From: a virus | Virus record (IMG/VR): IMGVR_UViG_3300020442_000008 | Coordinates: 1-64,000 of that record | Direction: 5' to 3' (one strand) | DNA: 64,000 bases | In this document: positions 14,327-61,493 of the stretch, one piece after another | Layout: each line of letters begins with the position of its first letter | Position numbering within the stretch: position 1 is the stretch's first letter | Notes under the pieces: model-generated | Database searches by the model: none | The model's input: only the letters and a program-made list of their open reading frames with translations | What the model was told of the DNA's origin: nothing | Made by a program: the position numbers and the translations under genes

Positions 14327-14355
14327 TTGACAAAACTCTGCTTATATAGTAGAGT
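14327..14355 (+). promoter_or_regulatory. Sigma-70-type promoter, leaderless spacing
   Basis: TTGACA, 17-nt spacer, TAGAGT, then 6 nt to the ATG at 14362. The expected start of transcription falls on the start codon. It is the leftmost member of the TTGAC promoter series. Confidence 0.8.
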
Positions 14356-14361
14356 TAAAAT

Positions 14362-14901
14362 ATGTCAGATTTATTATACAGAACAAAAACTTATCTCGTC
14401 GGCCACATGCAATACCTCTCTGGGAGAAACTGGAGAGAAGAAGTGACCGAAAAATTGAAACCTCTAAATGTAACCTGTTTCGATCCATACAAAAAGCCTT
14501 TCATGAAAGACGTTGAAGAAGACGAAGCGTCTAGGCAAGAAATGGAGACTTGGATGAAGACCAAGCAATACGATAGAGTTACAGATAGAATGAAAACCGT
14601 AAGGGCTTACGACTTAAATTTGGTAGATAGATCTGATTTTATCATTGCGCATCTTGTTCCAGATGTTGCGTCTTGGGGATCTGCGGAAGAGATCGTGACT
14701 GCAGTTAGAATGAAGAAGCCGGTCTTTGTAAGTATGGAAGGTGGAAAATCTAAAACTCCACTATGGATGCTAGGAATGTTTCCTCACAAATATATTTATA
14801 ATAACCTTGACGAAATCATAGAAATGTTGTATGCTATTAATAATGGAAACAAAGAAATTGATTCAGATAGGTGGAGACTACTTCGAAAGGAATTTAGATG
14901 A
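14362..14901 (+). CDS. Nucleoside 2-deoxyribosyltransferase-like protein
   Basis: 179 residues. The start YLVGHMQYLSGRNWREEVTEKL and the later DLNLVDRSDFIIAHLVPDV...SWGSAEEIV...KKPVFV pattern match the nucleoside 2-deoxyribosyltransferase-like fold used by phage nucleotide-salvage proteins: a Gly-rich first loop, an Asp-containing DRSDFII strand and a Gly-Ser-Glu-Glu helix. Classical enzymes exchange bases on 2'-deoxyribonucleosides. Being upstream of GMP reductase suggests purine salvage. Whether it transfers, hydrolyses or only binds nucleosides cannot be told from sequence. Transcribed from a leaderless-type promoter; overlaps the next small gene by ATGA. Confidence 0.65.
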   Translation: MSDLLYRTKTYLVGHMQYLSGRNWREEVTEKLKPLNVTCFDPYKKPFMKDVEEDEASRQEMETWMKTKQYDRVTDRMKTVRAYDLNLVDRSDFIIAHLVPDVASWGSAEEIVTAVRMKKPVFVSMEGGKSKTPLWMLGMFPHKYIYNNLDEIIEMLYAINNGNKEIDSDRWRLLRKEFR

Positions 14902-15056: not shown

Positions 15057-15987
15057 TTGTCATAAAATCGAAAAACAAGAAGCACCAAAAACCCTTGAAG
15101 ACTTTATACCTTTAAGGGATCGTGCAAGAATTTTCTACAATGGAATAACAAACCCTTATGCCAGAAAATTAAATTTCGACACAATAAAAGATTTAATACC
15201 CGACCAAGAGATAGAATTAAACCCTTCCCTAGAAGACGAAGATCTTATTATCGAGACAACACTACATAAGTATGTAGACTATTGCTTGCAAAAAATAAAT
15301 TTAGAAGCAAATTATTATTATAATTCCACAGGAGTAGCAGGGGTAAAAACTTACACAGATGAACCGATTTATATGATTTCTAAAAACGTATGTCATGATG
15401 AAAATTTAAAAAAATTTGTATCCTGCCCAGAATATCTAGGAGACTGGTTTGATAAATACATGCCAAATTACAGAGATTTAGTTGTATATGGCAAGCGGCA
15501 TACTTGGTTTTTTATCGGCCCCAAAAATACAAAAAGCGAAATGCATACAGACCATGATAACATACACACAACAATCCAGCAGCTTGATGGAGTAAAAAGG
15601 TTTTTTCTTTTAAGCCCCGAGGATATGTCGTTTATCGAAAACGAATGTCCGCCTGATTTTTTTTCCACGATAGAGTTTAAATTAGAATCAGAAAATCGCT
15701 GTCAGGTTTCAGACTTTTCGGGAGAAAGGGACTTGGAAGCTTTAAAGCACCTAAACCTGCTTTATGGAGATCTCTTTAAAGGTGATTTAGTTTACCTCCC
15801 AGGAAACTGGGGGCATTATGCTAACAGTTTAGAAGCGAGCCTTAGTGTGAGTAGGGATTTCATAGACGAAAGAAACGTTGATGGATATTTCTCTTCCATT
15901 ATGTTAAGTGGAGACGTTGAAAGATTATACCAAACAATAAGTGATGAAGAATCAACAAGAATATACAATGAAGTGTTTAAAATATAA
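15034..15987 (+). CDS. JmjC/cupin-like Fe(II), 2-oxoglutarate oxygenase
   Basis: About 318 residues. The His-x-Asp pair (MHTDHDN; H171 and D173) and a distal His in GNWGHYANS (H261) form the facial triad of cupin_8/JmjC hydroxylases. The surrounding WFFIGPKNTKSEMHTD, QLDGVKRFFLLSPED and GDLVYLPGNWGH segments are typical of this family. Members hydroxylate protein side chains (Asn, His, Lys, Arg) or demethylate them, using O2 and 2-oxoglutarate. A longer reading uses a TTG at 15016, but I chose the ATG run at 15034 with GGAGG 11 bases upstream. Substrate unknown; it heads a run of overlapping enzyme genes (to 19145), so it may act on a partner encoded there or on the host translation machinery. 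Confidence 0.75.
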   Translation: MMMSITIDCHKIEKQEAPKTLEDFIPLRDRARIFYNGITNPYARKLNFDTIKDLIPDQEIELNPSLEDEDLIIETTLHKYVDYCLQKINLEANYYYNSTGVAGVKTYTDEPIYMISKNVCHDENLKKFVSCPEYLGDWFDKYMPNYRDLVVYGKRHTWFFIGPKNTKSEMHTDHDNIHTTIQQLDGVKRFFLLSPEDMSFIENECPPDFFSTIEFKLESENRCQVSDFSGERDLEALKHLNLLYGDLFKGDLVYLPGNWGHYANSLEASLSVSRDFIDERNVDGYFSSIMLSGDVERLYQTISDEESTRIYNEVFKI

Positions 15988-16942
15988 AGACGTTTGTTTA
16001 ATACCAAACTACACAGACTGCCATAGCAGATCAGATCTAGACCCATCGGTCAAACTTTTTGGTAAAGATTTCCTACTACCAATCATTCCTGCGAATATGA
16101 AATCTGTAATAGATATGAATACATGCGAATGGATGAGCGCGCATAACTTTTTTTATATTATGCATCGCTTTGACCGTGATTTACCTGAGGACGTTGCCAA
16201 CGCCCAAGATTGGGAGACTATTTCATTTAGTATAGGAATCAAGGCTAAAGATAAGATGGCTGTCCAAAAAATTAGCAAACGAGATCATAGAGTAGACTAC
16301 TTAACAATCGATATTGCTCATGGCCATTGCAATCGAATGAAGGCCATGATCAAGTGGATTAAGAAATACCTTCCAGATGCAAAAATTATTGCAGGAAACG
16401 TTGCAACACCGCAGGCGGTAAGAGATTTAGCTTCTTGGGGTGCGGATATTGTAAAAGTTGGAATAGGTCAGGGTTCGCCTTGTACGACTAAAGATAAAAC
16501 AGGTTTTACGATGCCAATGTTTTCTTGTGTTAAAGAGTGTTCAGGGCAGTATGTTAATTTTGAATGCGAACCTTGGCCCGAGAAAGAAATTCCTATAATT
16601 GCAGACGGAGGTATAGAATGCAATGGGGACATCGCAAAAGCTTTGGTTGCGGGGGCGAAAATGGTAATGGCAGGAGGTATGTTTGCCTCTTGTAGCGATA
16701 GCCCTGCGGCGTGTAGTACGGTCAACAACCTACAATATAAAGCTTATTTTGGTTCAGCCAGTGCAGAAAATAAGGGTCACAATAACAACATTGAAGGAAA
16801 ATTAACAAACATTCCTTGCAACAACATGACTACCAGCGAAAAACTTGCAGAGATTAAACAAGATCTACAAAGTTCAATTTCCTATGCAGGAGGTAAAGAT
16901 TTAGACTGTTTCAAGAAAGTCGGCTATGAGGTCATTAATTAA
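15968..16942 (+). CDS. guaC: GMP reductase
   Basis: 324 residues, IMPDH/GMP reductase (beta/alpha)8 barrel. The start MKCLKYKDVCLIPNY is the normal family N-terminus, so I place the start here and not at the in-frame ATG at 15941. GIGQGSPCTTKDKTG holds the catalytic Cys172; IIADGGIECNGDIAKAL and MVMAGGMFASC are the phosphate-binding loops. No CBS domains, and its length fits GMP reductase better than IMP dehydrogenase. Reaction: GMP + NADPH to IMP + NH3. In a phage this would redirect guanine nucleotides toward IMP/adenine pools. Overlaps both neighbours by about 20 bases, so it is translated as part of the run. GMP reductase versus IMPDH-like specificity is the main uncertainty. Confidence 0.85.
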   Translation: MKCLKYKDVCLIPNYTDCHSRSDLDPSVKLFGKDFLLPIIPANMKSVIDMNTCEWMSAHNFFYIMHRFDRDLPEDVANAQDWETISFSIGIKAKDKMAVQKISKRDHRVDYLTIDIAHGHCNRMKAMIKWIKKYLPDAKIIAGNVATPQAVRDLASWGADIVKVGIGQGSPCTTKDKTGFTMPMFSCVKECSGQYVNFECEPWPEKEIPIIADGGIECNGDIAKALVAGAKMVMAGGMFASCSDSPAACSTVNNLQYKAYFGSASAENKGHNNNIEGKLTNIPCNNMTTSEKLAEIKQDLQSSISYAGGKDLDCFKKVGYEVIN

Positions 16943-33243: not shown

Positions 33244-33855
33244 ATGCCGTACTCTCAAGCAGGACAGGATATTTTTGTTAATCATTTATTTAAAGATTCA
33301 AATAGATTTTTTTTAGATTTTGGCTGCGGGGATGGCATAAACAAACCATGCGGAAACAATACTATGTTTCTAGAGCAAATGGGTTGGAATGGAATCTCTA
33401 TTGACATAAACCCCGATTATATAAATAGATTTAATCAGACGAGAAAAACAAAAGCGTATTGTATTGACTTAACAAAAGTAGATATCGTTAAAACAATGGA
33501 AGAGATTGGTTGCCCAAAATCTATAGATTACTTTTCATTTGATATCGATGATGCAACCTTGCAAGTTTTAAATAATTTCCCTTTTGATTATTTTGAGTTT
33601 AAGTTTATCACCTTTGAGCACGATTTATATAGAGGACAGTATGCTTTAAAGGCGTTTTCCAACAAACTTTTTGAAGATCAAGGCTATAGATTACTATTTG
33701 AAAATGTTTCCTTTTCTGGAGTAAGAGATAACCAATTAGTGGCAGTAGAAGATTGGTACATTAATCCAAAGTTTTTTGATTACCCGTGTATTAAAAAAGG
33801 AGCGGACTCAAGATCTTTGATATATGAGTACGAAAAATTTAAAAATTCAATATGA
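33244..33855 (+). CDS. FkbM-type methyltransferase
   Basis: 203 residues. SQAGQDIFVNHLF and FFLDFGCGDGINKPCGNNTMF are the FkbM N-terminus and SAM-binding GxGxG loop; WNGISIDINPDYI binds the SAM ribose; DYFSFDIDDATLQVL carries motif IV. O-methylates sugars in many polysaccharide clusters. Starts right after the preceding stop and overlaps gmd by 4 bases. The target is probably a glycan built by this cassette. Confidence 0.8.
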   Translation: MPYSQAGQDIFVNHLFKDSNRFFLDFGCGDGINKPCGNNTMFLEQMGWNGISIDINPDYINRFNQTRKTKAYCIDLTKVDIVKTMEEIGCPKSIDYFSFDIDDATLQVLNNFPFDYFEFKFITFEHDLYRGQYALKAFSNKLFEDQGYRLLFENVSFSGVRDNQLVAVEDWYINPKFFDYPCIKKGADSRSLIYEYEKFKNSI

Positions 33856-34901
33856 AAAAAATAATTATCACAGGAGTAACAGGTCAAGATGGAAGTCATA
33901 TGGCAGACTATTTACTGAAAAATACAAACCATAAGATATATGGAGCAGTAAGAAGACTTAGCGTTAAAAATCATGAGAATATTTTACATTTAGAAAACGA
34001 ACCTAGGTTTAATTTAATTGATATGGATTTAAATGACGCGCACAGCATAAGGGATGTTGTTCTGGACATAAAGCCTGACTATTTTATTAATTTTGCAGCG
34101 CAATCTTTTGTTGCAGGAAGTTGGAAGTACCCGATTCAAACATGGGATACAGATGCAAACGCTGTTCTACATATATTAGAATCTATTCGTAGATTTTCTC
34201 CGCATTGTAGATTTTATAATGCGGGCTCCTCAGAAGAATTTGGAGATGTAGCATATTCACCTCAAGACGAAAAGCATCCCTTATTACCTCAATCTCCTTA
34301 CGGGGCAGCAAAATGCGCCGCTAGACATATTGTAAGGGTTTATAAAGAGTCTTATGGCTTATACGCCGTCCAGGGTTGGCTTTTTAACCATGAAGGAGTG
34401 AGGAGAGGGCTCGACTTCGTCACAAGGAAAATTTCGGATGCTGTAGCAAAAATTAAATTTTCGATTGTAAATAATTTAGAACTACCTTGTTTTGAATTAG
34501 GCAATCTAGAAGCTCAAAGAGACTGGAGCGATGCAGAGGATTTTATGGAGGGGGTTTGGTTAATGATGAATCAAGATCGTCCATTTAATTATGTACTCGC
34601 AAGTGGTGAGATGCATACGATTAGGGAGTTTGTGGATGAGTGCTTTAAGTGTGCAGGGATCGATGGTTCTTGGAAATTTCAAAATGGTTCAAATAAACCA
34701 GAGGATGAAGTTTTTATGAAAGATACTGGAGAAATTTTACTTAAAATCAATCCTAAATTTTATAGACCAGCAGAAGTGCATGAATTATGTGGAGACCCAA
34801 GATTGGCAGAATCTGAATTACATTGGAAGAGGAAGACCGACTTTAAAGGTCTGGTTCAAAAAATGTATGAACATGATGAGCGGAAACACTTTAATAAATG
34901 A
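33852..34901 (+). CDS. gmd: GDP-mannose 4,6-dehydratase
   Basis: 349 residues, extended short-chain dehydrogenase. IITGVTGQDGSHMADYLL is the NADP-binding GxxGxxG loop in the form typical of GMD (with the GQDGS start), NAGSSEEFGDV holds the catalytic Ser/Glu, and SPYGAAKCAA the Tyr-x-x-x-Lys pair (YGVAK in most enzymes). Converts GDP-mannose to GDP-4-keto-6-deoxymannose. The next gene encodes the following step, and together they supply GDP-fucose. ATGA overlap with the FkbM gene. Confidence 0.9.
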   Translation: MKKIIITGVTGQDGSHMADYLLKNTNHKIYGAVRRLSVKNHENILHLENEPRFNLIDMDLNDAHSIRDVVLDIKPDYFINFAAQSFVAGSWKYPIQTWDTDANAVLHILESIRRFSPHCRFYNAGSSEEFGDVAYSPQDEKHPLLPQSPYGAAKCAARHIVRVYKESYGLYAVQGWLFNHEGVRRGLDFVTRKISDAVAKIKFSIVNNLELPCFELGNLEAQRDWSDAEDFMEGVWLMMNQDRPFNYVLASGEMHTIREFVDECFKCAGIDGSWKFQNGSNKPEDEVFMKDTGEILLKINPKFYRPAEVHELCGDPRLAESELHWKRKTDFKGLVQKMYEHDERKHFNK

Positions 34902-35832
34902 GAGAATTTTCATTGCAGGACACAAAGGTATGGTTGGTTCTGCACTCTGGAGGCGTTTAAAAGATTACGATGTTATTACGCTAGATAAATCTAAATTAGA
35001 TTTAATTAATCAACAGTCTGTTGAGGAGTTTTTTGCAGAGTATAAGCCAACTATGGTGGTGAATTGCGCAGCAAAAGTCGGAGGAATCCTAGCAAATAAT
35101 TCCTTCAAAGGTGAATTCATTTTTAATAATTTACAAATTTCAGCAAACATCATCAACCAATCGCACAAACATGGGGTAAAGAAATTAATTAACCTAGGAT
35201 CATCTTGTATATATCCCAAGCAGTGCGAAATCCCCATAGTTGAAGAGTCTCTCTTAAGTGGAAAGCTAGAACCCACAAACGAACCGTATGCAATAGCTAA
35301 AATAGCAGCATTAAAAACCTGTGAGAGTTATTTTTATCAATATGGAAGCAACTTCTACTCATTAATGCCTTGTAATCTTTATGGTTTTGGAGATAATTTT
35401 GACCTAGAGACATCTCATGTTTTACCAGCGTTAATGAGAAAGATAGACCACGCAAAGCGCAATAATATAAATTGTGTTGAGATCTGGGGTTCGGGAAAAC
35501 CCTTGAGGGAATTCTTATTTGTAGACGATTTAGCGGAGGCGATTGAATTTTGCTTAATTAATATTGATGCGGAAAATATCTATTCCCAAGGGGTGTCACA
35601 TTTAAATTGTGGCTCAGAAGAAGAGGTTTCAATTATGGAATTGGTTTATTTAATATCTGATGTTATTGGATATAAGGGAGATTTTTCTTTCGATTCCTCA
35701 AAACCAGACGGGACTTTTAGAAAAAAAATGGATAACTCTAGGATGACTGACTCTGGATTCACAGCCAGAACAAAACTAAAAGATGGACTAAAGATGACAT
35801 ACAAGTGGTTCAAAGAATTAAATTTATCTTGA
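34876..35832 (+). CDS. fcl: GDP-L-fucose synthase
   Basis: About 318 residues from the ATG at 34876; an earlier in-frame ATG at 34780 lies inside gmd. IFIAGHKGMVGSAL is the NADP loop with the family's H-x-G-M-V-G-S, NLGSSCIYPKQC the catalytic Ser/Cys/Tyr region and NEPYAIAKIAAL the Y-x-x-x-K. Epimerises and reduces the GMD product to GDP-L-fucose. Overlaps gmd by 26 bases, so the pathway is translated as a unit. Confidence 0.9.
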   Translation: MSGNTLINERIFIAGHKGMVGSALWRRLKDYDVITLDKSKLDLINQQSVEEFFAEYKPTMVVNCAAKVGGILANNSFKGEFIFNNLQISANIINQSHKHGVKKLINLGSSCIYPKQCEIPIVEESLLSGKLEPTNEPYAIAKIAALKTCESYFYQYGSNFYSLMPCNLYGFGDNFDLETSHVLPALMRKIDHAKRNNINCVEIWGSGKPLREFLFVDDLAEAIEFCLINIDAENIYSQGVSHLNCGSEEEVSIMELVYLISDVIGYKGDFSFDSSKPDGTFRKKMDNSRMTDSGFTARTKLKDGLKMTYKWFKELNLS

Positions 35833-36516: not shown

Positions 36517-36553
36517 TTTTTTAATACTAATGTGTAATATATTTGCACAGATT

Positions 36554-38824
36554 ATGAAAATATTACTACTGACCTTACTATCTTTTAGCACCTGTTTTGC
36601 AGGCGAGCTTTACTTTAATAACGGAAAAAATCTTAAAGCGGATATACTTGAAGCCAACTCGACTCATGCCTTAATAGAGAGGTGGGAAGATGGGCAACTT
36701 TTTAGAATTAAAATCAATTCATTAACAAAAGATAATCAGGCTTATATTAAAAATAATTTCCCTCCGAGCCACGAAGCTCTTCCAAAATTCAAAAAACCTC
36801 TATCAAGTGACCAATTAAACAGGCACTCGGCTTTTATAGATAGATTAATAGAAACAAAACTAAGATCATATAACCAAAGGCCAAATAAGGATATCAATGA
36901 TGAGATTTTTGTAAGAAGGGCTTACTTAAAAATAATCGGAAGAACACCTTCATTGAAAGAATTTGATAATTTTATTAACAACAGAGATTCAAATAAAAGA
37001 GCTAAATTAATTGACGAGCTATTGGGTAGTGAGGGTTATGTCAGTAATTGGTTTAACTTTTGGGCAGATATATTACGGATTAAAGACAGGCTAAATAATA
37101 GAATATCTGGAATACCTTATAAAAATTATGTTAAGCAATTCATATCAGATAACCGACCCTATGATGTTTGGGTTAGGGAAATGCTATCTTCCTCCGGACC
37201 GCTCTGGGTAGAAGGCAACGAGGGTGTTAGTTATTTTGCTAGGGATGTAAATATGCCTTTGGACAATATGGCAAATACTGTTAGAATTTTTCTAGGGACA
37301 AGCTTGGAGTGCGCTCAGTGCCACGATCACCCTTTTGATCGCTGGACTCAAAAACAGTTTTATGAAATGGCGGCTTTTACAAGCGGTTCAACCAATTTAA
37401 GATTAAAACGGGAGAGCAACTTAAATGAATTAAATAAATTAGTGAGAGAAGAAAGGAGAAAGCTGGAGCAGGCTGAAGAACCACAGAAGTCGCGTCAATT
37501 ACAAAATGCAGTAAGAGATATTGAAGACATCCTAGGTACAGGACTAACAAGTCTTGGAAATGGTAAAATTAATTTACCTAAAGATTATCAATACGATAAT
37601 GCAAAACCAAACGAATCTTTGACTGGAAAAACTATTTTCGGAAAGGAGATAGATATAAAAACATATGCTCCCGAAGCAGGCTCTAGAGAAACATACGCTA
37701 ATTGGCTTGCCTCGGACTCAAACCCTAGGTTTACTGCCGTGATTGTCAATAGGCTTTGGAAGGAAGTTTTTGGCTTGGCGCTGATTGAGCCATTGGATAA
37801 TATGTTTGATGACACATTAGCCACAGACCCTACTTTACAACTGCATTTAGAAAAGGTAATGGTTGCATTGGATTATGACTTGAAAGAATTCTTAAGAGTC
37901 TTATATAACACAAAAACTTTTCAAAGAGAAGCTGTCGCAAGGGATGTCATACCAAAAGATAATAAAGACACGCAAATGCCTGTAGATGTACAATGGATAA
38001 TAGCTGGACCAAATATCGAAAAACAATCCCAAAATGCAGTACCTTACTTTTATCAAGGGCCAATGCTCGAAAGAATGAGCGGGGAACAGATTTGGGACTC
38101 TCTTGTGAATTTAACATTCAGTAATATTGACTCTCGCAAATTAGAACAAAACACAAAAGGTTATGAAAATTTTAGAAATTTTTCAGAAATGAGCGGGGAA
38201 GATTTATTTAATCAAGTTATGGCAAAGATTAATAAAACAGAAAAACCAAATAATCCAAATAAGACAAAGTTTTCTAAACCGATTAATACAGATTGCCCCA
38301 TAAAGCCAGGGAGAGCGATTGACCCAACCCTTCTTGCCCTCAATGAGAACGGAGAAACAGTTGCTTTTTGCTGTGAATCTTGCGTGGACAAATATAAATC
38401 CCAACAAGACGCAAAAAAACAAGAATACCGAAAGAACTTCGTAAAAGATCGTAACTCTGTAAGAGCATCAGAACTACCTTCTCCTGCTCCTATTGGACAT
38501 CTAATTCGTGAGTTCGGCGGGTCGGATAGGGAGCAGATAGAAAATTCAGATAAAAGCGCTTCAGCAACGCAGGTTTTGAATTTAATTAATGGCTTTGTGG
38601 AAACGAGATTACTCAAGAATAAAAATTTTGAAATAATAAAAGCAATAGAATCCAAGAAGACATTAAAAGATAAAGTTGAAGTAGGTTATAAATATATACT
38701 AAGCAGAGAACCAACTTCTCAAGAATTAAGAATTTTTACGGAGAATTTGAAAAACCAAAAAGATGAATATAAAGAAATAATTTGGGCGTTAATTAACACC
38801 CATGAATTTATGTTCGTTAAGTAA
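36554..38824 (+). CDS. Secreted DUF1549/DUF1553 protein with CxxCH motif
   Basis: About 756 residues. Signal peptide ILLLTLLSFSTCFA; a small SHD1-like beta domain (residues ~25-75); DUF1549 (~95-290; VRRAYLKIIGRTPS, ECAQCHDHPFDRWTQ); a coiled segment; DUF1553 (~370-500 and again toward the end; FTAVIVNRLWKEVFG, LSREPTSQELRIF). Inserted between ~565 and 620 is a CPIKPGRAIDP...FCCESC segment, a YHS/TRASH-like metal-binding motif. The CxxCH could bind haem or metal. Such proteins are characteristic of Planctomycetota and Verrucomicrobiota, sit next to DUF1501 genes, as here, and lack an established activity; finding a full-length one in a phage is unusual. An upstream ATG at 36530 is less good because it would put eight residues before the signal. 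Confidence 0.85.
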   Translation: MKILLLTLLSFSTCFAGELYFNNGKNLKADILEANSTHALIERWEDGQLFRIKINSLTKDNQAYIKNNFPPSHEALPKFKKPLSSDQLNRHSAFIDRLIETKLRSYNQRPNKDINDEIFVRRAYLKIIGRTPSLKEFDNFINNRDSNKRAKLIDELLGSEGYVSNWFNFWADILRIKDRLNNRISGIPYKNYVKQFISDNRPYDVWVREMLSSSGPLWVEGNEGVSYFARDVNMPLDNMANTVRIFLGTSLECAQCHDHPFDRWTQKQFYEMAAFTSGSTNLRLKRESNLNELNKLVREERRKLEQAEEPQKSRQLQNAVRDIEDILGTGLTSLGNGKINLPKDYQYDNAKPNESLTGKTIFGKEIDIKTYAPEAGSRETYANWLASDSNPRFTAVIVNRLWKEVFGLALIEPLDNMFDDTLATDPTLQLHLEKVMVALDYDLKEFLRVLYNTKTFQREAVARDVIPKDNKDTQMPVDVQWIIAGPNIEKQSQNAVPYFYQGPMLERMSGEQIWDSLVNLTFSNIDSRKLEQNTKGYENFRNFSEMSGEDLFNQVMAKINKTEKPNNPNKTKFSKPINTDCPIKPGRAIDPTLLALNENGETVAFCCESCVDKYKSQQDAKKQEYRKNFVKDRNSVRASELPSPAPIGHLIREFGGSDREQIENSDKSASATQVLNLINGFVETRLLKNKNFEIIKAIESKKTLKDKVEVGYKYILSREPTSQELRIFTENLKNQKDEYKEIIWALINTHEFMFVK

Positions 38825-38848: not shown

Positions 38849-38877
38849 TTGACTTTTGCATAAAATTGTGTAATAAT
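38849..38877 (+). promoter_or_regulatory. Promoter, leaderless spacing
   Basis: TTGACT, 17 nt, AATAAT (TAATAA at 16 nt is the alternative), 6 nt before the ATG at 38884. Gives the DUF1501 gene a start separate from its partner. Confidence 0.65.
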
Positions 38878-38883
38878 ATTACT

Positions 38884-40176
38884 ATGAAACATAGTAGTAT
38901 AGATGAACTTGGCAGAAGAGAATTCATAGCTCATGCAGCAAAAGCCTGTTTGGGCGTAGGCTTAATGCCTATGGCAGGAAATTTTATACATGACAGCGTT
39001 CAAGCCTTAACTCCAGGGGCTAGAGTACCCACGGCTCGTCATGTTATATATTTAAATATGGCTGGAGCAATGTCTCACTTAGATACTTTTGGACCGAAAC
39101 CAGATGCTCCAGATATTCAAGGTCCGACAAAATCTATAGCAACAAGCGCAGATGGAGTGATTTTATCTGAAAATTTACCCAAAACTGCACAAATAATGCA
39201 TAATGCAGCGATCATAAAAACCATGAACACAAGCCAAGGTGCGCATGAGCAAGCGAGCTACCTTATGCATACATCTTATCTTAAAAGAGGAACTATTGTT
39301 CACCCAACTTTTGGTAGCTGGGTTTCGAAACTTTCGGGTTCTCTTAATAAAACAATTCCAGCTAATGTAAAAATTGGCGGAGGTGGGGGTGGTGCAGGCT
39401 TCCTAGAATCTAAATATGGAGCTTTACCTATTAATAACCCAAAGTCTGGATTAGCAAATAGCAAAATGGCATCCTATTTAGATCAAGAGCACTTTCAAGG
39501 GAGGATATCGATAACAGAAGCTTTAAATGAAAACTTTGCAACAGATTTCCCGCAAAAACAAATTAGAGCTTATTCTGATTTATATAAAGATGCAATTAAG
39601 TTAATGAATAGTGACGATCTGAATGCTTTTGATATTACAAAAGAATCAGAAATGACATCTAGTTTGTATGGTACAACAAATTTCGGCCAAGGTTGTCTTC
39701 TTGCAAGAAGGCTTGTGGAGAATGGTGTGAGGTATGTTGAGGTCACCAGAGGCGGTTGGGATACCCATGATAATAATTTTGAGAGGGTTGCGGCTAATTG
39801 CGCAGATATAGACCAAGCATTGAGCGGTTTATTAATTGACTTAGATCGCAGGGGGCTTTTGTCGGAAACTTTAGTGGTGTTAACTTCTGAATTTGGTAGA
39901 ACTCCAAACATTAACGGCAGAGACGGAAGAGATCATTGGCCTTACTGTTTTACGGCTTTCTTAGCTGGAGGCGGGGTAAAAGGAGGAATCACTTACGGAG
40001 AAACTGATAAGACGGGAAGGTCGCCAATTGACGGGAGACCCGTTAAGCCAGCGGATCTAAATGCTACTATTGCATATGCACTAGGGTTGTCATTAAATAG
40101 CTTTCAATATTCTCCATCAGGAAGGCCATTTACGATTGCACACAAAGGAGAACCATTAACAGAGATTTTATCATAA
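38884..40176 (+). CDS. DUF1501 (alkaline-phosphatase-superfamily-like) secreted protein
   Basis: 430 residues. GRREFIAHAAKACLGVGLMP is a Tat-like signal. HVIYLNMAGAMSHLDTFGPKPDAP is the DUF1501 hallmark, followed by TMNTSQGAHEQASYLMHTSY, RYVEVTRGGWDTHDNNFE and LTSEFGRTPNINGRDGRDHWP, which carry the Asp/His residues that bind metal in sulfatase/phosphatase relatives. DUF1501 proteins accompany DUF1549/1553 in PVC bacteria; the pair has been linked to polysaccharide use, but the reaction is unproven. Full length, so probably functional. The final ATAATG overlaps the start of the next gene. Confidence 0.88.
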   Translation: MKHSSIDELGRREFIAHAAKACLGVGLMPMAGNFIHDSVQALTPGARVPTARHVIYLNMAGAMSHLDTFGPKPDAPDIQGPTKSIATSADGVILSENLPKTAQIMHNAAIIKTMNTSQGAHEQASYLMHTSYLKRGTIVHPTFGSWVSKLSGSLNKTIPANVKIGGGGGGAGFLESKYGALPINNPKSGLANSKMASYLDQEHFQGRISITEALNENFATDFPQKQIRAYSDLYKDAIKLMNSDDLNAFDITKESEMTSSLYGTTNFGQGCLLARRLVENGVRYVEVTRGGWDTHDNNFERVAANCADIDQALSGLLIDLDRRGLLSETLVVLTSEFGRTPNINGRDGRDHWPYCFTAFLAGGGVKGGITYGETDKTGRSPIDGRPVKPADLNATIAYALGLSLNSFQYSPSGRPFTIAHKGEPLTEILS

Positions 40177-43899: not shown

Positions 43900-44285
43900 C
43901 CCCAACAGAACATTTCCAACTCATTTGGAAAACTTACGAGTTTACACTAACTCGTCTTGCGTTCCTAGAGGATGATTACCAATACCTTTTTGCTCAAATA
44001 AATAATAAATTAAGCGAAAATGATAAGCGAATCCCTGTGGATCTAAAACAGGCTTTTATAGAGAATGCTAGAGAGCTTAAATTAATATATGCAAAACAAC
44101 AGAAAACCATTAATGAATTAATTTCTTTTTGTGACGAGCATAGAGCTTGGAAAAATTCGGAAATCATTCCCGAAGGCTATGATATATCAAAACATTCACT
44201 AAAAGAGTTAAGTAGGGTTACAAGGCATCTTGAGGAAGTTCTAGAAGACTCTATGGAAAATGTAGAAAGTTTGCTTGACTTCTGA
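43896..44285 (+). CDS. Helical hypothetical protein
   Basis: 129 residues, almost all helical, with two heptad-like stretches (around LAFLEDDYQYLFAQINNKL and LSRVTRHLEEVLEDSME). Possibly a coiled-coil dimer. The promoter of the next gene overlaps its end. Confidence 0.55.
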   Translation: MTPTEHFQLIWKTYEFTLTRLAFLEDDYQYLFAQINNKLSENDKRIPVDLKQAFIENARELKLIYAKQQKTINELISFCDEHRAWKNSEIIPEGYDISKHSLKELSRVTRHLEEVLEDSMENVESLLDF

Positions 44286-44303
44286 GAAGTATTGCTCTAG
44301 TGT
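44275..44303 (+). promoter_or_regulatory. Promoter, leaderless spacing
   Basis: TTGACT, 17 nt, TAGTGT, 6 nt before the ATG at 44310. Drives the AT-hook-like gene and the RuvB-like gene. Confidence 0.7.
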
Positions 44304-44309
44304 TAAATT

Positions 44310-44561
44310 ATGAAACGAGGAAGACCAAAAGGCTACTCTCCTTATGTGGAGATTTCTTATGAAGACCTTGCCGACTATGTTGGCAGGAAAACTCTAATTA
44401 AAGTCTGTAAGACTTGGATAGAAGACCTTGCGGAGCAAGCTCATTCATCTAATAACCTATTCTCGCTTAGTAAACAGAGCCATGCAGAAGATGTGCATGA
44501 GGAAGAAGCTAATCAGGAACAACCAAAAATAGAATATGCAATCACAAACTTCAATGAATAA
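44310..44561 (+). CDS. Small AT-hook-like protein
   Basis: 83 residues. MKRGRPKGYSP at the start matches the AT-hook core (RGRPKG), which binds AT-rich DNA minor grooves. A helical middle and an acidic C-terminus follow. Its last 8 bases overlap the RuvB-like ATG (26 bases if 44536 is used). Probably binds DNA with the ATPase. Confidence 0.6.
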   Translation: MKRGRPKGYSPYVEISYEDLADYVGRKTLIKVCKTWIEDLAEQAHSSNNLFSLSKQSHAEDVHEEEANQEQPKIEYAITNFNE

Positions 44562-45496: not shown

Positions 45497-45525
45497 TTGA
45501 CTAAACCCAAATAATATCATATTAT
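45497..45525 (+). promoter_or_regulatory. Promoter, leaderless spacing
   Basis: TTGACT, 17 nt, TATTAT, 7 nt before the ATG at 45533. Gives the ACP/ketosynthase pair its own transcript. Confidence 0.8.
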
Positions 45526-45532
45526 ATATAAT

Positions 45533-45886
45533 ATGAAAAACCAAGATCGGATAGAAGAAGCCCTAGAAGAGGGCAATAAAATTGCAGATGAATTAGATAA
45601 ATTAGAAGCCAAAAAATCAAGCTCAAAACCAAAAGCTCTATCAAGAGAATCCCTCATAGAAGAATTAAACGAAATAATAGAAGAAAATGACGGAGTAATG
45701 ATCGAGGATGAAGATATTCTATTTAGCGAATTGGGTTTAGATAGCTTTGGGGCGACAATTTTCTTTCTTGAGTTAGATGATAGGTATAATTATTGCGAAT
45801 CGGAAAGTCAAGAAGATTTTATGAAAAATACAGACTGGAAAAGGTTAAAAGTAAAGACAATTATTGATAACATTTTATGTTCTTAA
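45533..45886 (+). CDS. Acyl carrier protein-like
   Basis: 117 residues. An ~38-residue Lys/Glu-rich extension precedes an acyl-carrier fold: LIEELNEIIEE, EDEDILFSELGLDSFG, and the helix after it. Ser71 in GLDSFG is the 4'-phosphopantetheine attachment site (the D-S-L/F motif). Acidic as usual for ACPs, but longer than bacterial AcpP (~78) because of the extension. Needs a host PPTase. Overlaps the ketosynthase gene by 10 bases, so the two are probably made at similar levels. Confidence 0.8.
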   Translation: MKNQDRIEEALEEGNKIADELDKLEAKKSSSKPKALSRESLIEELNEIIEENDGVMIEDEDILFSELGLDSFGATIFFLELDDRYNYCESESQEDFMKNTDWKRLKVKTIIDNILCS

Positions 45887-46728
45887 AAAGTTACACCCAT
45901 ACAGTTCCGACCTTGGAGCTTGATGATTATTTCGCAATCGAAGGGTTAGATCGGGATTGTAATTTTAATTTATTCTACAGAAAACAGAATAAAGATTTTT
46001 TATCATCAATCGAAGCTAATGATGGTTTAGCAGTTATATATTGTCCACCTATACCTTTTGTTGAAGTCGAGTCGAAAGGCTTGGCTATTAATAAACTTCA
46101 GCACACTCATGCACATAAATATGCTTTTGCATTAAAAAATTGCAGAGTAGATTATCTTGAAATTGAAGGTTCGGCTTGTGCTTCTTCTTTAGCGGGAATA
46201 GGAAAAGCTTATAAATTAATCCATAGTGGTGAATTTAAAGATGTCTTGGTCATTACTGACGAAAGGATAAGTAAAGGGGTTTCCGATTTATTTAAACAAA
46301 TGAAAATTAATATAAAAGCGGGAGATGGTTTCTCCGCTCTACATTTGGTAAAGTCAGAGCCGAAAGATTCATTTATTAAAATCACCGACCCTGCTACGGC
46401 TTATCACTACCATACTAATCCTTGGGCTACAACAGAGGAAGGTTACAGAAAGGTTATCGCAAGCGAAGACTATGAATATATTAAGCCTCATGGAACAGGA
46501 ACAGATGTGAATGATGATTCAGAAAAATATTTATGTGAAAACAAAAAAGTGATGTTATCACCCGAAGGAATGAGGTACAAGGATAAATATGGTCATATGC
46601 AAGGTGCAAGTGGGGCGACAGAAATTTGCCAAATGCTAGAAGAACACGCCAATCTGCCAAGGACTTTGTGCCTAGCTGCGGGTTTGGGTAACTTTTATGC
46701 AGGATTGGTTATAGAAAAAAAATCTTGA
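45877..46728 (+). CDS. Minimal beta-ketoacyl-ACP synthase-like protein
   Basis: 283 residues, about 130 shorter than FabF. The condensing-enzyme triad is visible: C101 in IEGSACASSLAG, H205 in KPHGTGTD, and H240 in KYGHMQGASGAT, plus the nearby Lys. All sit in the correct order and spacing for a Cys-His-His decarboxylating ketosynthase. The N-terminal third is atypical and much shorter than in FabB/F. Reaction inferred: condensation of an acyl-ACP with malonyl-ACP, or acyl transfer. Pairs with the ACP gene. I know of no established phage counterpart. Confidence 0.8.
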   Translation: MFLKSYTHTVPTLELDDYFAIEGLDRDCNFNLFYRKQNKDFLSSIEANDGLAVIYCPPIPFVEVESKGLAINKLQHTHAHKYAFALKNCRVDYLEIEGSACASSLAGIGKAYKLIHSGEFKDVLVITDERISKGVSDLFKQMKINIKAGDGFSALHLVKSEPKDSFIKITDPATAYHYHTNPWATTEEGYRKVIASEDYEYIKPHGTGTDVNDDSEKYLCENKKVMLSPEGMRYKDKYGHMQGASGATEICQMLEEHANLPRTLCLAAGLGNFYAGLVIEKKS

Positions 46729-46753
46729 CTTTTAATTAATAATATCATATATT
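46725..46753 (+). promoter_or_regulatory. Promoter, leaderless spacing
   Basis: TTGACT, 17 nt, TATATT, 6 nt before the ATG at 46760. It overlaps the last codons of the ketosynthase gene. Confidence 0.75.
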
Positions 46754-46759
46754 CATAAT

Positions 46760-47116
46760 ATGAAATACATAATGATTACATTGTTTTTTATGGCGGGGTG
46801 CAATCATGCCCAAAAACAAATGCACAAGGTAGAGGAAAGCCCTCAAGTACCACCCAACCTACCACCCCATGTTATTGAAATAAATAGCGTCCCACATCCA
46901 TTTAATTTAAATGGATACAACCCCTATGTTGTTTGGGTTAATGGTAAGATGATAAAGCTCACATCAAATCAGAAAAAAGAATTGATTAATATAGTTAAAG
47001 CAGAAAACATTAATCCTGTGTCTGATGCAGACCTTCATTCGGGAGACGGATGGCTTCACCCTCTTTATCCTTCTCGTAAATCTTTTGAACTTGTTTTGAA
47101 TGATCTCAACAGATAA
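46760..47116 (+). CDS. Small lipoprotein
   Basis: 118 residues. Signal start MKYIMITLFFMAGC with the MAGC lipobox; mature Cys14. A Pro-rich spacer (PPNLPPHVIE) and a beta/alpha domain with VVWVNGKMIKL follow. Likely anchored in an envelope membrane. Overlaps the macro-domain gene by 17 bases. Confidence 0.7.
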   Translation: MKYIMITLFFMAGCNHAQKQMHKVEESPQVPPNLPPHVIEINSVPHPFNLNGYNPYVVWVNGKMIKLTSNQKKELINIVKAENINPVSDADLHSGDGWLHPLYPSRKSFELVLNDLNR

Positions 47117-47591
47117 AATTCCAACCATTGAGGGCAATCTTTTAGATTTTCCTTGCGAAATAACTCGCATAGCACATTCTTGCAATACTCATAATGTGAT
47201 GGGGGCGGGAATTGCAAAGCAAATAAAGGATCGCTACCCTAATGCTTACGAGTCTGATTGTCACGCTAGATACGAAGACCAAAATAATTTAGGAAATTGG
47301 AGTTTTGCATGGACGGACTCGACTTGTCAAAGAGGGATTTATAATTTATATACTCAATCTCAAATCGGAGGAAAAAGAGCGGTAAATTACGAAGCTTTTC
47401 ACAAGTCTTTAAGTTTTGTTGCGGAGCATTTGCATTATAATTATTTGCACGGAGAAGATGATGTTATACTCGGCTTGCCCTACGGAATTTCTTGTGGCTT
47501 GGCAGGTGGAAATTGGAATGTTATTTATGAAATGATAAATGATATTTTGGCAGATATGCCCTATCAAACTTTTATAGTGAAATATGATTAG
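47100..47591 (+). CDS. Macro domain (ADP-ribose-binding/hydrolase)
   Basis: 163 residues. GNLLDFPCEITRIAHSCNTHNVMGAGIAKQIKDRYP is the macro-domain first half (Asn pair plus Gly-rich loop) and LPYGISCGLAGGNWNVIY the second loop. Resembles small phosphatase-type macro domains that act on ADP-ribose-1''-phosphate, but could also remove ADP-ribose from proteins. Could counter host ADP-ribosylation of phage proteins, or recycle tRNA-splicing products. No other domain attached. Confidence 0.85.
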   Translation: MISTDKIPTIEGNLLDFPCEITRIAHSCNTHNVMGAGIAKQIKDRYPNAYESDCHARYEDQNNLGNWSFAWTDSTCQRGIYNLYTQSQIGGKRAVNYEAFHKSLSFVAEHLHYNYLHGEDDVILGLPYGISCGLAGGNWNVIYEMINDILADMPYQTFIVKYD

Positions 47592-51147: not shown

Positions 51148-51176
51148 TTGACAAAAAATAAATTACACCCTACCAT
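51148..51176 (+). promoter_or_regulatory. Promoter, leaderless spacing
   Basis: TTGACA, 17 nt, TACCAT, 6 nt before the ATG at 51183. Drives the UV endonuclease gene and the small genes after it. Confidence 0.75.
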
Positions 51177-51182
51177 TAAACC

Positions 51183-52250
51183 ATGACCAACTTAGGACTC
51201 ACTTGCATCAGCGAAGAACTCAAAGCTAAAGATAAAGCAAAATATTCTTTTCGCACAATGACTCGCAAGCGTTTCAATGATCTATCAGAAAAGGAAGGAA
51301 GAAATGAAGCTATTAAAGAATTGTCTGAACGCATTTATCACAATGTGCTTGTTACTCGTTATATTGTTCGCCATTGTATTCGGAACTCTATATGTCATTA
51401 TCGTCTCAGTTCTGCTCTCTTTCCTTTGCTTACCGATGCAACTTTGGACTTATCACTTGAACTATTACCCGATAAAGTCAAGATCGAAAATGAGCTAATA
51501 AAAATTGGCTTAATAGCTAAAAAATTTAACCTTTCAATCGGTTCGCATCCCGATCAATTCAATGTTCTTGCTTCTACTAATGAAACATCAGTAAATAGAA
51601 CTATTAACGAACTAAATTTTCAATCGAGAGTATTTGATTTAATTGGCTTGCCTCAAACGCATCAAGCACCAATGAACATTCATATCAATGGTACTCCGCC
51701 CGAAATTAAATCAGACACAACTGATCCCGACTCTATTAATAATATGCGTATCAAAGAAATGGCAGAAAGATTTTATAATAATTTGATGCGTTGTGATGAA
51801 GGTGTTTTTAATCGACTAACTATTGAGAACGAAGACAAGGGTTTTTGGAATGTAGATAATATAATTAAGTTTAGTGAATATATATTTAACAAATATAATC
51901 TTAATATTCCTGTTTGTTATGACAATCTGCATGATTTTTGCAATCCATCAGAAGAACGCAATATTATATTTCAAGCAGAGCGTTGTGCATATACATGGGT
52001 AGATCAAGATGATGGAGAATTCATTGCTCCTGTTTTTCATTGGTCAGAAGGTAAGCCCGAAAAACCAAGATCACACGCAGACTACTTTGCACTAGGAAAT
52101 TATCCACCCACTATTGCCATCGAACCAAATAGTGAAGCCAAGTGGGAATGTGAAGTTAAGCTTAAAGATATTGCCATACGAACACTTGTAAAAGGAATGA
52201 AATACAGATATTCAAGAAATATGCTTGACAACAAAGAGCAATTAGTCTAA
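51183..52250 (+). CDS. uvdE: UV-damage endonuclease (UVDE)
   Basis: 355 residues, TIM-barrel family. MTNLGLTCISEELK, SSALFPLLTD, LSIGSHPDQFNVLAS, HQAPMNIHING, ENEDKGFWN and CYDNLHDFCN carry the His/Glu/Asp metal ligands of the UVDE fold in the correct order. Cuts 5' to UV lesions and abasic sites without ATP, starting alternative excision repair. Full family length. First gene after a leaderless-type promoter. Together with the DNA ligase and the glycosylase-like gene it suggests a phage repair set. Confidence 0.9.
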   Translation: MTNLGLTCISEELKAKDKAKYSFRTMTRKRFNDLSEKEGRNEAIKELSERIYHNVLVTRYIVRHCIRNSICHYRLSSALFPLLTDATLDLSLELLPDKVKIENELIKIGLIAKKFNLSIGSHPDQFNVLASTNETSVNRTINELNFQSRVFDLIGLPQTHQAPMNIHINGTPPEIKSDTTDPDSINNMRIKEMAERFYNNLMRCDEGVFNRLTIENEDKGFWNVDNIIKFSEYIFNKYNLNIPVCYDNLHDFCNPSEERNIIFQAERCAYTWVDQDDGEFIAPVFHWSEGKPEKPRSHADYFALGNYPPTIAIEPNSEAKWECEVKLKDIAIRTLVKGMKYRYSRNMLDNKEQLV

Positions 52251-59201: not shown

Positions 59202-61493
59202 ATGATTATCACACAAGAAAAATCCAAACGAGTCGTATCGTCTCACGATTTCGATTCAGTAAATTGTACCATTGATGCAGAAGATATGCGTTATGTCGCT
59301 TCTCTTCTTCGCAACAACTATTCTAATCCACCTCTCGCAGTTGTGCGTGAGATTAGTGCTAACGCACTAGACGCAAACAAGGAAGCTAATGCTACTCGTA
59401 AAGTAGAGATTACTCTTCCTTCCAAGTTTCAGCCAAACTTTTGCGTTCGTGATTTTGGTAGTGGCTTGAGCAAAGAAGATGTCTTCGGTTTGTATTCAAA
59501 ATATGGTAAAAGCACTAAGCGTAATTCCAATTCGTATATCGGTGCTTTCGGTATTGGCAAGTTTGCCCCATTGTCTTATGGGAATAATTTCACTTGCGTT
59601 TCGTATCATGGTGGAACTAAATCTTCTTATAATATTTTCGTTAATGAAGATGATGATACCAAGATTGTTGAAATGCACCAAGAACCTTCCAACGAACCAA
59701 GTGGTTTGTCGGTAGAAGTTGCTATTGCAGATGAAGATGTAGACAAATTCAGAGAAATTGTCAAAGCGTTCTTTCGTTTCTTTAGCGAAGATGAAATGCC
59801 AAAATTTATTGGCATTGGTGATGACGAACAATTTTTCGACAAGTATGATGTTGTGCTTCAATCCAAAGATGATTCTTGGTTCATCATTGATGACAAACAA
59901 GACTATTGGAGAAGAAGTCATTCGCAATCTCATGCTTTCATGGGCAGAGTGCATTATCCTATCAATACGAATTCTATTGACTTCAAGAATTATGTAGAAG
60001 AGGACTATGACTATGCACCTCTAAAGAATCTATGTGATGAAGATAATGTTTACCTTCGATTCGATATTGGAGAGCTAAAACTACATCATAGTCGTGAGTC
60101 TTTAGAGTATAACAAAGCTACACAAAAAGCTATTGTAGAACATCTTAGGAAAATGTACGATGACATTCAAGAGATTGCCAAGGAAAAACTTGGTGGAGCA
60201 ACTTGCCTATGGGATGCAAAAGCAAAGTATGCACAAGTTATCAATGCTTTGCCATATCAGTTAAGAAGTATTTTTCAGAACTCTTTTAAGTGGAAAGGTA
60301 TTCCAATTTTGGGTGCAACTTTCCATAGAAGTTATCATTACAATGAAAATATTATCATTACTGAATATACTAAAAGCGAAGACAAGGATGTTACTGATGG
60401 ATATAAAGTAAAAAGTCAAAAATCAAGTAGGATAGATGTTCACAAGAACAACCGATTGGTTCTACAAGACATTAAATCCTCTCATGGCAATGCTTTACGA
60501 GCAAGAACTATATTCAATACTGACGATTCTATTGTTGCAGTTTATGTTGTTTCTTACGATAAAAGTGGTGAGACATATATGTTCAATGATGAAGATGGTT
60601 GGCAACTCAACCTTGTCTCTGATGAAAATATATCCTATACTAGCAATATCGAGAAAGCTAAACTAAAGCAAGGAACTAGATCAAGTGGCGAATCACGCTC
60701 ATCCGTTCCAACCTTTCTATACGATCCGCAAGGATATAGAAATTCCGATCAATGGAAGAATGGTGCAGAACGAGACGATCTTGAAGAAGAACTAGATGAT
60801 GATTCACAACTTGTATATATTTCCATTAGTAATTATAAACCAAGTGGAGAAAGTGCTACTGATTTTTATAGCTTAGATTCTCTCAAGCGTGACTACAAGG
60901 GCATGAAAGCTTTGCTTAAAAACTTGGATGAACCTATGATTGATCTGCATGGAATTCGTAAGGCAGATGTTTCCAAGCTTGACAAGTCAAAATGGATTGA
61001 ATGGCAAGATTATCGTATTCGCAAAGCTAAGGGTGCATTGCTTCGCAGAAAAGCTGATATATTGCGTGGAGAGCGTAGACTTGCTTATACAGAGCATCGA
61101 CATGAAATGTCTCATGTGAAAAGTATTGAAGGGTTACTAGCGAATAAGAGCCTTAAAAATATTTTAAACAATAGTCTTGACAAAAACCATGATGTCAGAG
61201 AAGCAATGAATATTCTTGCAGATTCTCAACTAGAAGATGTTGTTGTGTCCACATTGAGTCAACTCAAAAAGTTAGTACATGATAACGATAAAGATTGGTT
61301 CGACAAGAATTTCTCTTCTACATATAAATGGAAAAGCTTTGACTATCTTTGCAAAGATATTTCAGATAAGTACCCATTACTTGTGAACATAAATTCACAA
61401 GTTTACGGATGGGCAAATCTATCCGAATCAAATTTCGGAAAGAACATTGCTGATTATATTTCTATGTGTGATAAGCTAGGGGAAGAGGCATGA
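59202..61493 (+). CDS. rIIA: RIIA-like GHKL-ATPase
   Basis: 763 residues. GHKL ATP-binding motifs: VVREISANALDA (48-58; N-box), CVRDFGSGLS (81-90; G1), YIGAFGIGKFAPLSYG (112-127; G2). C-terminal ~250 residues are charged and helical, as in T4 RIIA. With RIIB next it forms the rII pair, which in T4 affects lysis inhibition and exclusion by RexAB; the exact activity of RIIA is still not settled. Length close to T4 RIIA (725). Its stop codon lies inside the terminator hairpin at 61479. Confidence 0.9.
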   Translation: MIITQEKSKRVVSSHDFDSVNCTIDAEDMRYVASLLRNNYSNPPLAVVREISANALDANKEANATRKVEITLPSKFQPNFCVRDFGSGLSKEDVFGLYSKYGKSTKRNSNSYIGAFGIGKFAPLSYGNNFTCVSYHGGTKSSYNIFVNEDDDTKIVEMHQEPSNEPSGLSVEVAIADEDVDKFREIVKAFFRFFSEDEMPKFIGIGDDEQFFDKYDVVLQSKDDSWFIIDDKQDYWRRSHSQSHAFMGRVHYPINTNSIDFKNYVEEDYDYAPLKNLCDEDNVYLRFDIGELKLHHSRESLEYNKATQKAIVEHLRKMYDDIQEIAKEKLGGATCLWDAKAKYAQVINALPYQLRSIFQNSFKWKGIPILGATFHRSYHYNENIIITEYTKSEDKDVTDGYKVKSQKSSRIDVHKNNRLVLQDIKSSHGNALRARTIFNTDDSIVAVYVVSYDKSGETYMFNDEDGWQLNLVSDENISYTSNIEKAKLKQGTRSSGESRSSVPTFLYDPQGYRNSDQWKNGAERDDLEEELDDDSQLVYISISNYKPSGESATDFYSLDSLKRDYKGMKALLKNLDEPMIDLHGIRKADVSKLDKSKWIEWQDYRIRKAKGALLRRKADILRGERRLAYTEHRHEMSHVKSIEGLLANKSLKNILNNSLDKNHDVREAMNILADSQLEDVVVSTLSQLKKLVHDNDKDWFDKNFSSTYKWKSFDYLCKDISDKYPLLVNINSQVYGWANLSESNFGKNIADYISMCDKLGEEA

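Follow-up and report, generated by a model that had tools for sequence, protein, structure and literature searches.

We describe here a two-gene unit in the IMG/VR virus record IMGVR_UViG_3300020442_000008, in which the gene of a predicted acyl carrier protein (ACP) precedes that of a short β-ketoacyl-ACP-synthase-like protein (ketosynthase, KS); the window, that is, the whole stretch of DNA that was analysed, comprises the first 64 kb (64,000 nucleotides) of this 128,598-base record. The ACP and the KS are a linked, co-evolving pair kept in many phages, and, judging from sequence and structural models, we give a probability of about 0.58 to the reading that they constitute a dedicated phage-type acyl-ACP module, which would divert host acyl groups. 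A preliminary description of this DNA, made from its letters alone, had recognised a unit of two genes under a promoter of their own, for an ACP and an intact condensing enzyme of the KS type, and our analysis supports this. It had also known of no phage carrying such a pair, and this did not hold, given that the pair is common in uncultivated phages and that annotations of a phage KS already exist for phage MW202545 and, as “FabB”, in UniProt.

Recurrence and Co-Evolution of the ACP–KS Pair

As a lone query, the window KS found no close relative in IMG/VR, and 51 loci were reached via the weakly similar KS of MW202545; scanning IMG/VR with profiles then confirmed two lists of related stretches, of at least 545 and at least 560, which probably overlap heavily. 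Among the fetched loci, an open reading frame (ORF) that is positive with the ACP hidden Markov model (HMM) and carries the D-S motif stands directly upstream of every non-identical intact KS ORF (114/114), the exceptions to the pairing being a locus with a broken KS (L103) and one that is cut off. All but six of the 198 ACP-HMM matches adjoin a KS ORF, and these six all lie in loci without a complete KS ORF following, where most of the KSs reach the contig end. The majority of the contigs matched in an ACP-only scan had already been found by means of the KS, and the KS and ACP distances are strongly correlated (Mantel r 0.869, with 0 of 500 permutations as high). The window pair has the same arrangement, its ACP gene lying directly upstream of, and overlapping, a KS gene of the phage clade.

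Two further matches were dropped, namely an unrelated 551-aa hypothetical ORF of Klebsiella phage BUCT541, judged to be a chance match, and MT835553, an unverified record in which the match is to a fab operon of bacterial type; no ACP/KS pair is annotated in Bordetella phage BPP-1. Several “unverified” INPHARED records (L004, L149, L151 and L152), labelled as human-faecal phages or as “phages” of Listeria, Staphylococcus and Enterococcus, contain FabF-type genes of the ordinary bacterial kind, which are likely bacterial contamination.

In the KS tree, built with a small bacterial sample and a phage set gathered with phage-derived patterns, 37 phage-type KSs fall on one side of a branch that separates them from 13 bacterial KSs (support 93/97). 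The window KS does not group with bacterial FabF/FabB and is placed, on a long branch, in a clade of short KSs of 273–300 aa (support 100/99). One member of this clade (L141) comes from a Sulfurospirillum metagenome-assembled genome contig with no ACP seen upstream, and a single scan of bacterial genomes gave only seven matches, some of which are ordinary bacterial KSs. A single origin of the phage KSs is likely from these sequences, though not proven.

The Two Proteins

In the first protein, Ser71 sits in a GLDSFG motif, as the preliminary description had it, and in the AlphaFold model (pLDDT 89.2) helix II (residues 71–85) begins precisely at this serine, so that, within a bundle of four helices, the N-terminal end of helix II bears a D-S-[LMF] motif. 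ACP structures rank top in a fold search with this model (probability 0.9–0.98), with weak E-values (best 0.13), as expected of a bundle that is small and has an additional helix at its N-terminus. The family profile built from relatives matches solved ACPs at 6.7e-8, and D70 and S71 are invariant across 34 aligned sequences. Sequence and model together thus identify the product as an acyl carrier protein, with Ser71 as the predicted site of phosphopantetheinylation.

The KS carries Cys101 in SACASS, His205 in KPHGTGT and His240 in KYGHMQG, again as located before, with Lys203 and Lys235 conserved too. An alignment of 40 family sequences has C101, K203, H205, T207, T209, N212, E216, K235, G239, H240, S245, E249, G269 and G271 invariant, and this residue set corresponds to the Cys-His-Lys-His site of FabF-type enzymes. 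Matches to FabF and KS families had been proposed as a check and were found with the KS alone, namely to ACP_syn_III (7.7e-8), Ketoacyl-synt_C (3.4e-5) and fabF/KS models (2e-8 to 1e-6, with fabF at 7e-8), while the KS family profile matches FabF crystal structures at 1.5e-33. The match to the fabF equivalog model is partial and reaches 31.6 bits against a cut-off of 493.75, so this is not a full-length FabF/FabB. The AlphaFold2 model (pLDDT 90.7, pTM 0.91) has a thiolase fold; in a structure search it gave more than 1000 PDB matches at E<=0.001, of which the top 50 are all KS or fatty-acid synthase (FAS) structures, with TM-scores (on the query) up to about 0.75 against FabF and FabB and an identity to solved KSs of 13–18%. 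The preliminary description had taken folds other than an ACP bundle and a thiolase fold as a refutation, and it is these two folds that are predicted.

The protein therefore has the thiolase fold and the catalytic Cys-His-His with supporting Lys of β-ketoacyl-ACP synthases (KAS) I and II, and lacks the Cys-His-Asn of KAS III (FabH), given that a second His (GHMQGASG) stands at the position of FabH’s Asn and that HGTGT is present. FabF has the motifs HGTSTxxG and a GFGG gate; the phage KSs have the signatures HGTGTxxN and (A/S)GxG(N/G), with GLGN in the window KS. From its sequence and its model, the product is a shortened thiolase-fold KS and apparently a working condensing enzyme.

Accessory Enzymes and Gene Neighbourhood

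Phosphopantetheinyl transferase (PPTase), malonyl transacylase and FabG-type ketoreductase (PF01648, PF00698 and PF13561) were found in none of the 49 phage records with the pair (0/49), many of which are fragments, nor in the genome of the window phage. This absence is uniform across the 49 records, and therefore loading of the carrier and provision of the substrates must fall to host enzymes. By themselves, a KS and an ACP could do no more than produce a β-ketoacyl-ACP or move an acyl group, and only one KS occurs in the 128,598-base record. In five records of one subclade (L075, L082, L083, L094 and L095), a di-iron protein of ~270 aa with EExRH...DExRH motifs adjoins the pair (for example, at L075:6503-7312 and L095:4664-5488), and this desaturase-like neighbour is a hint that the carrier holds an acyl chain.

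In most relatives, the ACP–KS pair sits within virion operons, among coat, adaptor and internal-virion genes. Phages with long KSs have a virion structural protein before the pair, often with a small ORF in between, and the short clade has, in succession, a tape-measure-like protein, a major head protein, a structural protein, the ACP, the KS, an ORF of ~165 aa and a protein of ~750 aa. A conserved ORF of ~150 aa follows the KS in 75 of 114 pairs, and in the long-KS phages it is followed by a large protein whose N-terminus is a hydrophobic repeat. The surroundings are different again in a few relatives, one example being a pair after a helicase gene, and the window pair is flanked by a clamp-loader-like gene and a lipoprotein-like gene; since the contexts differ among phages, the two genes behave as a unit that is moved or kept regardless of the genes around it.

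The ORFs directly after the KS are represented in the long clade by L009:6962-7393 and its family (69 loci) and in the short clade by L062:6852-7349 and its family, with no homology detectable between the two families. The ORF after the KS looked GNAT-like by eye, but its profiles gave no significant match in PDB, Pfam or PHROGs, and we assign it no function. Many of the large proteins two genes after the KS (L062:7328-9865 and L025:4928-7987) start with M-(G/S/A) and have hydrophobic or VV/DAV-repeat N-termini; they are alike across the clades in position and N-terminus and not clearly homologous by profile.

Comparison with Known Systems

The best viral fold match of the KS is UniProt A0A6J7X0R1, “FabB” of an uncultured Caudovirales phage (E 3.2e-15, TM 0.77). 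This protein, the “3-oxoacyl-ACP synthase” of MW202545 and PHROGs phrog_35856 belong to the same KS superfamily as the window KS, though they are about 366 aa long versus 283 and share 22–26% identity with it. MW202545 resembles the window in having an ACP-like ORF, annotated merely as hypothetical, just upstream of its KS, and differs from it in its neighbours, the KS having a stabilization protein on one side and further late genes on the other.

With E. coli FabF/FabB (KAS II/I) and AcpP, the phage pair shares the thiolase fold, the Cys-His-Lys-His site and the acpP-fabF gene order, whereas the phage KS is ~120 residues shorter, has HGTGTxxN instead of HGTSTxxG and GLG(N/G) instead of the GFGG gate, and falls in a separate clade with no accompanying fab genes found. 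A discrete KS and ACP are also common to the minimal type II polyketide synthase (PKS; KS, chain-length factor and ACP), but the phage pair, with a single KS in the genome, has no chain-length factor; no tailoring genes were seen, cyclases and thioesterases not having been searched for.

Isolated viral ACP or fabF genes are usually classed as auxiliary metabolic genes. This is how the ACPs of Erythrobacter phage R6L (ORF32) and Alteromonas phage R22Y (gp30) were interpreted, which the accessible parts of both sources describe without a KS partner, unlike the window pair (PMC5463345, PMC11705849), and also the fabG-acpP-fabF set of Roseobacter prophages, which has a host-like order including fabG, whereas the window pair is without it (PMC8224337). 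The fabF gene has further been reported in viral contigs, including those of pelagimyophages, where a desaturase was noted too (PMC7029224), and others (PMC12783922, PMC5704599). Earlier phage ACP and fabF genes are thus described singly or as host-like sets; we found no description of a dedicated phage ACP–KS pair in the open-access literature, a scope outside which most subscription journals fall, and we claim no priority.

Proposed Function and Alternative Explanations

For a dedicated phage-type acyl-ACP module, we infer catalysis, acyl chain and acceptor as follows. A host PPTase would convert the ACP to holo-ACP at Ser71, and the KS would load a host acyl group onto Cys101 and condense it with a malonyl unit on the phage ACP, or else transfer the acyl group. 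A particular acyl chain would thereby be built or held on the phage’s own carrier, via host malonyl transfer and reduction, and would be delivered to an acceptor specified by the phage. A virion or DNA-ejection protein is one leading candidate acceptor because the pair lies in most relatives among coat, adaptor and internal-virion genes, and a membrane lipid is the other. Taken singly, we hold the membrane lipid to be a tentative choice and the virion or ejection protein a tentative one of similar or slightly lower standing, and a small molecule would be an improbable acceptor, with a different acceptor, or none at all, taking up the remainder. The preliminary description had thought of a lipid, a quinone-like signal or a secondary metabolite as possible products. 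The wider proposal, that many phages use the acyl-ACP unit to attach acyl groups to virion or DNA-ejection proteins of their own, or to the membrane where they enter or leave the cell, with the window phage having a reduced short-KS form, is rather unlikely as a whole, and we know of no description of lipid modification of phage particles by their own acyl-ACP unit.

Several observations weigh against such a module or its link to the virion. The ACP alone scores below threshold with Pfam PP-binding (E = 0.0099, 16.6 bits versus a gathering cut-off of 20.8), and the substrate pocket and dimer interface of a KS ~120 residues shorter than FabF are thereby only putative. The matches of the di-iron protein to acyl-ACP desaturases (PF03405, E 1e-5 to 1e-6) lie under the curated bits, with DesA2 among weak PDB matches, and no desaturase-like gene was found in the genome of the window phage. 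Neither were the virion-type neighbours of the relatives found in this genome, where the terminase gene lies at 104 kb, more than 50 kb from the pair, and therefore the virion link comes from the relatives only.

The pair might instead be an ordinary auxiliary metabolic one, host-derived acpP-fabF genes boosting fatty-acid elongation or adjusting membrane fluidity, in keeping with the normal bacterial order of acpP beside fabF, as in E. coli, and with the interpretation given to the Roseobacter prophage set (PMC8224337), the pelagimyophage fabF (PMC7029224) and the ACP genes of isolated phages. We consider this unlikely, though a serious contender, given that the KS is of a phage type, with 283 aa versus ~410, 13–18% identity to solved KSs and a place in a phage-only clade, that it lacks the gate phenylalanine of FabF (GLGN versus GFGG), and that no fabG, fabD or acpS was found alongside. 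A chance resemblance or an assembly artefact, which the sub-threshold score of the single ACP sequence might suggest, we regard as already refuted by the confident models, the 114/114 pairing and the E-values (1e-33 and 1e-7) with which the family profiles match solved structures.

ACPs have many binding partners in the host, and only two genes with no accessory enzymes were found, so the phage proteins could be decoys or regulators that bind host PPTase, acyl-ACP or FAS enzymes, shutting down or retuning lipid synthesis without making any product. The preliminary description had likewise entertained sequestration of host acyl-ACP; as a sole role it is disfavoured, since even highly divergent pairs retain the catalytic Cys, His, Lys and His and the carrier Ser without change, a conservation for which a pure decoy would have no need. 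Considering also the desaturase-like enzyme that lies beside the pair in one subclade, we think a decoy improbable. Slightly harder still to credit is a minimal polyketide-like unit that would make a small signal or toxin for release in the course of infection. In its favour, a minimal type II PKS is built around a KS and an ACP, and matches to the PigJ and AmcF biosynthetic models were obtained, but no chain-length factor or ketoreductase was found (cyclases and thioesterases were not searched for), and the pair is mostly among virion genes in the relatives.

The evidence points beyond auxiliary metabolic genes, to a phage-specific co-evolving pair, mostly among virion genes, with a full catalytic apparatus and with priming and reduction left to the host, and it suggests, for many phages, a fatty-acyl chemistry of their own in the course of infection. 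If the module is active, phages would direct acyl chemistry to their own purpose, with Ser71 and Cys101 as testable residues.

Locus Layout and Expression

Both reading frames lie where the preliminary description had placed them (Table 1), the ACP first, and share 10 nt.

Table 1. Features of the ACP–KS unit, in window coordinates.
Feature	Position	Strand	Remarks
Promoter, sigma-70-like	45497..45525	+	TTGACT-17-TATTAT; TTGAC-to-ATG spacing of 35-36 nt strongly over-represented in genome
Acyl carrier protein (ACP)	45533..45886	+	117 aa; phosphopantetheine predicted on Ser71; residues 2-29, additional N-terminal helix
Short β-ketoacyl-ACP-synthase-like protein (KS)	45877..46728	+	283 aa; Cys101, Lys203, His205, Lys235, His240
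Promoter of next gene	46725..46753	+	TTGACT-17-TATATT; end marker of the two-gene unit

The pair has its own promoter: in a consensus scan of the region the motif as such is no better than in shuffles (33 found versus 28.6 expected), whereas it belongs, with a spacing of 36 nt, to a genome-wide TTGAC-ATG class, as does the promoter of the next gene. A TTGAC with an ATG following at exactly 35 nt occurs in 32 cases genome-wide versus ~5 at other distances. The predicted transcript start coincides with the ACP start codon, so the ACP–KS mRNA is probably leaderless, and the genome-wide excess of this spacing makes leaderless mRNAs look like a general habit of the phage. The ACP and KS genes are one transcription unit, bounded by the next gene’s own promoter. 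Other examples with the 35-nt distance in the record are at 14327-14362, 44275-44310, 51148-51183 and 46725-46760.

Other Genes of the Phage

A PSCyt2/PSD1 (DUF1549/DUF1553) gene at 36530-38824 is followed by a DUF1501 gene at 38866-40176 (E 2e-42 and 2e-110), a pair which we take to be typical of Planctomycetota/Verrucomicrobiota, and which suggests this group as the host of the phage. A macro-domain protein at 47100-47591 (phrog_335, DarG-like, E 4e-8) is possibly a counter-defence against ADP-ribosylation. Further phage genes encode a GDP-mannose dehydratase and epimerase pair (33852-35832), an IMPDH/GMP reductase (15941-16942), a UvdE endonuclease (51183-52250) and a GHKL ATPase (59202-61493).
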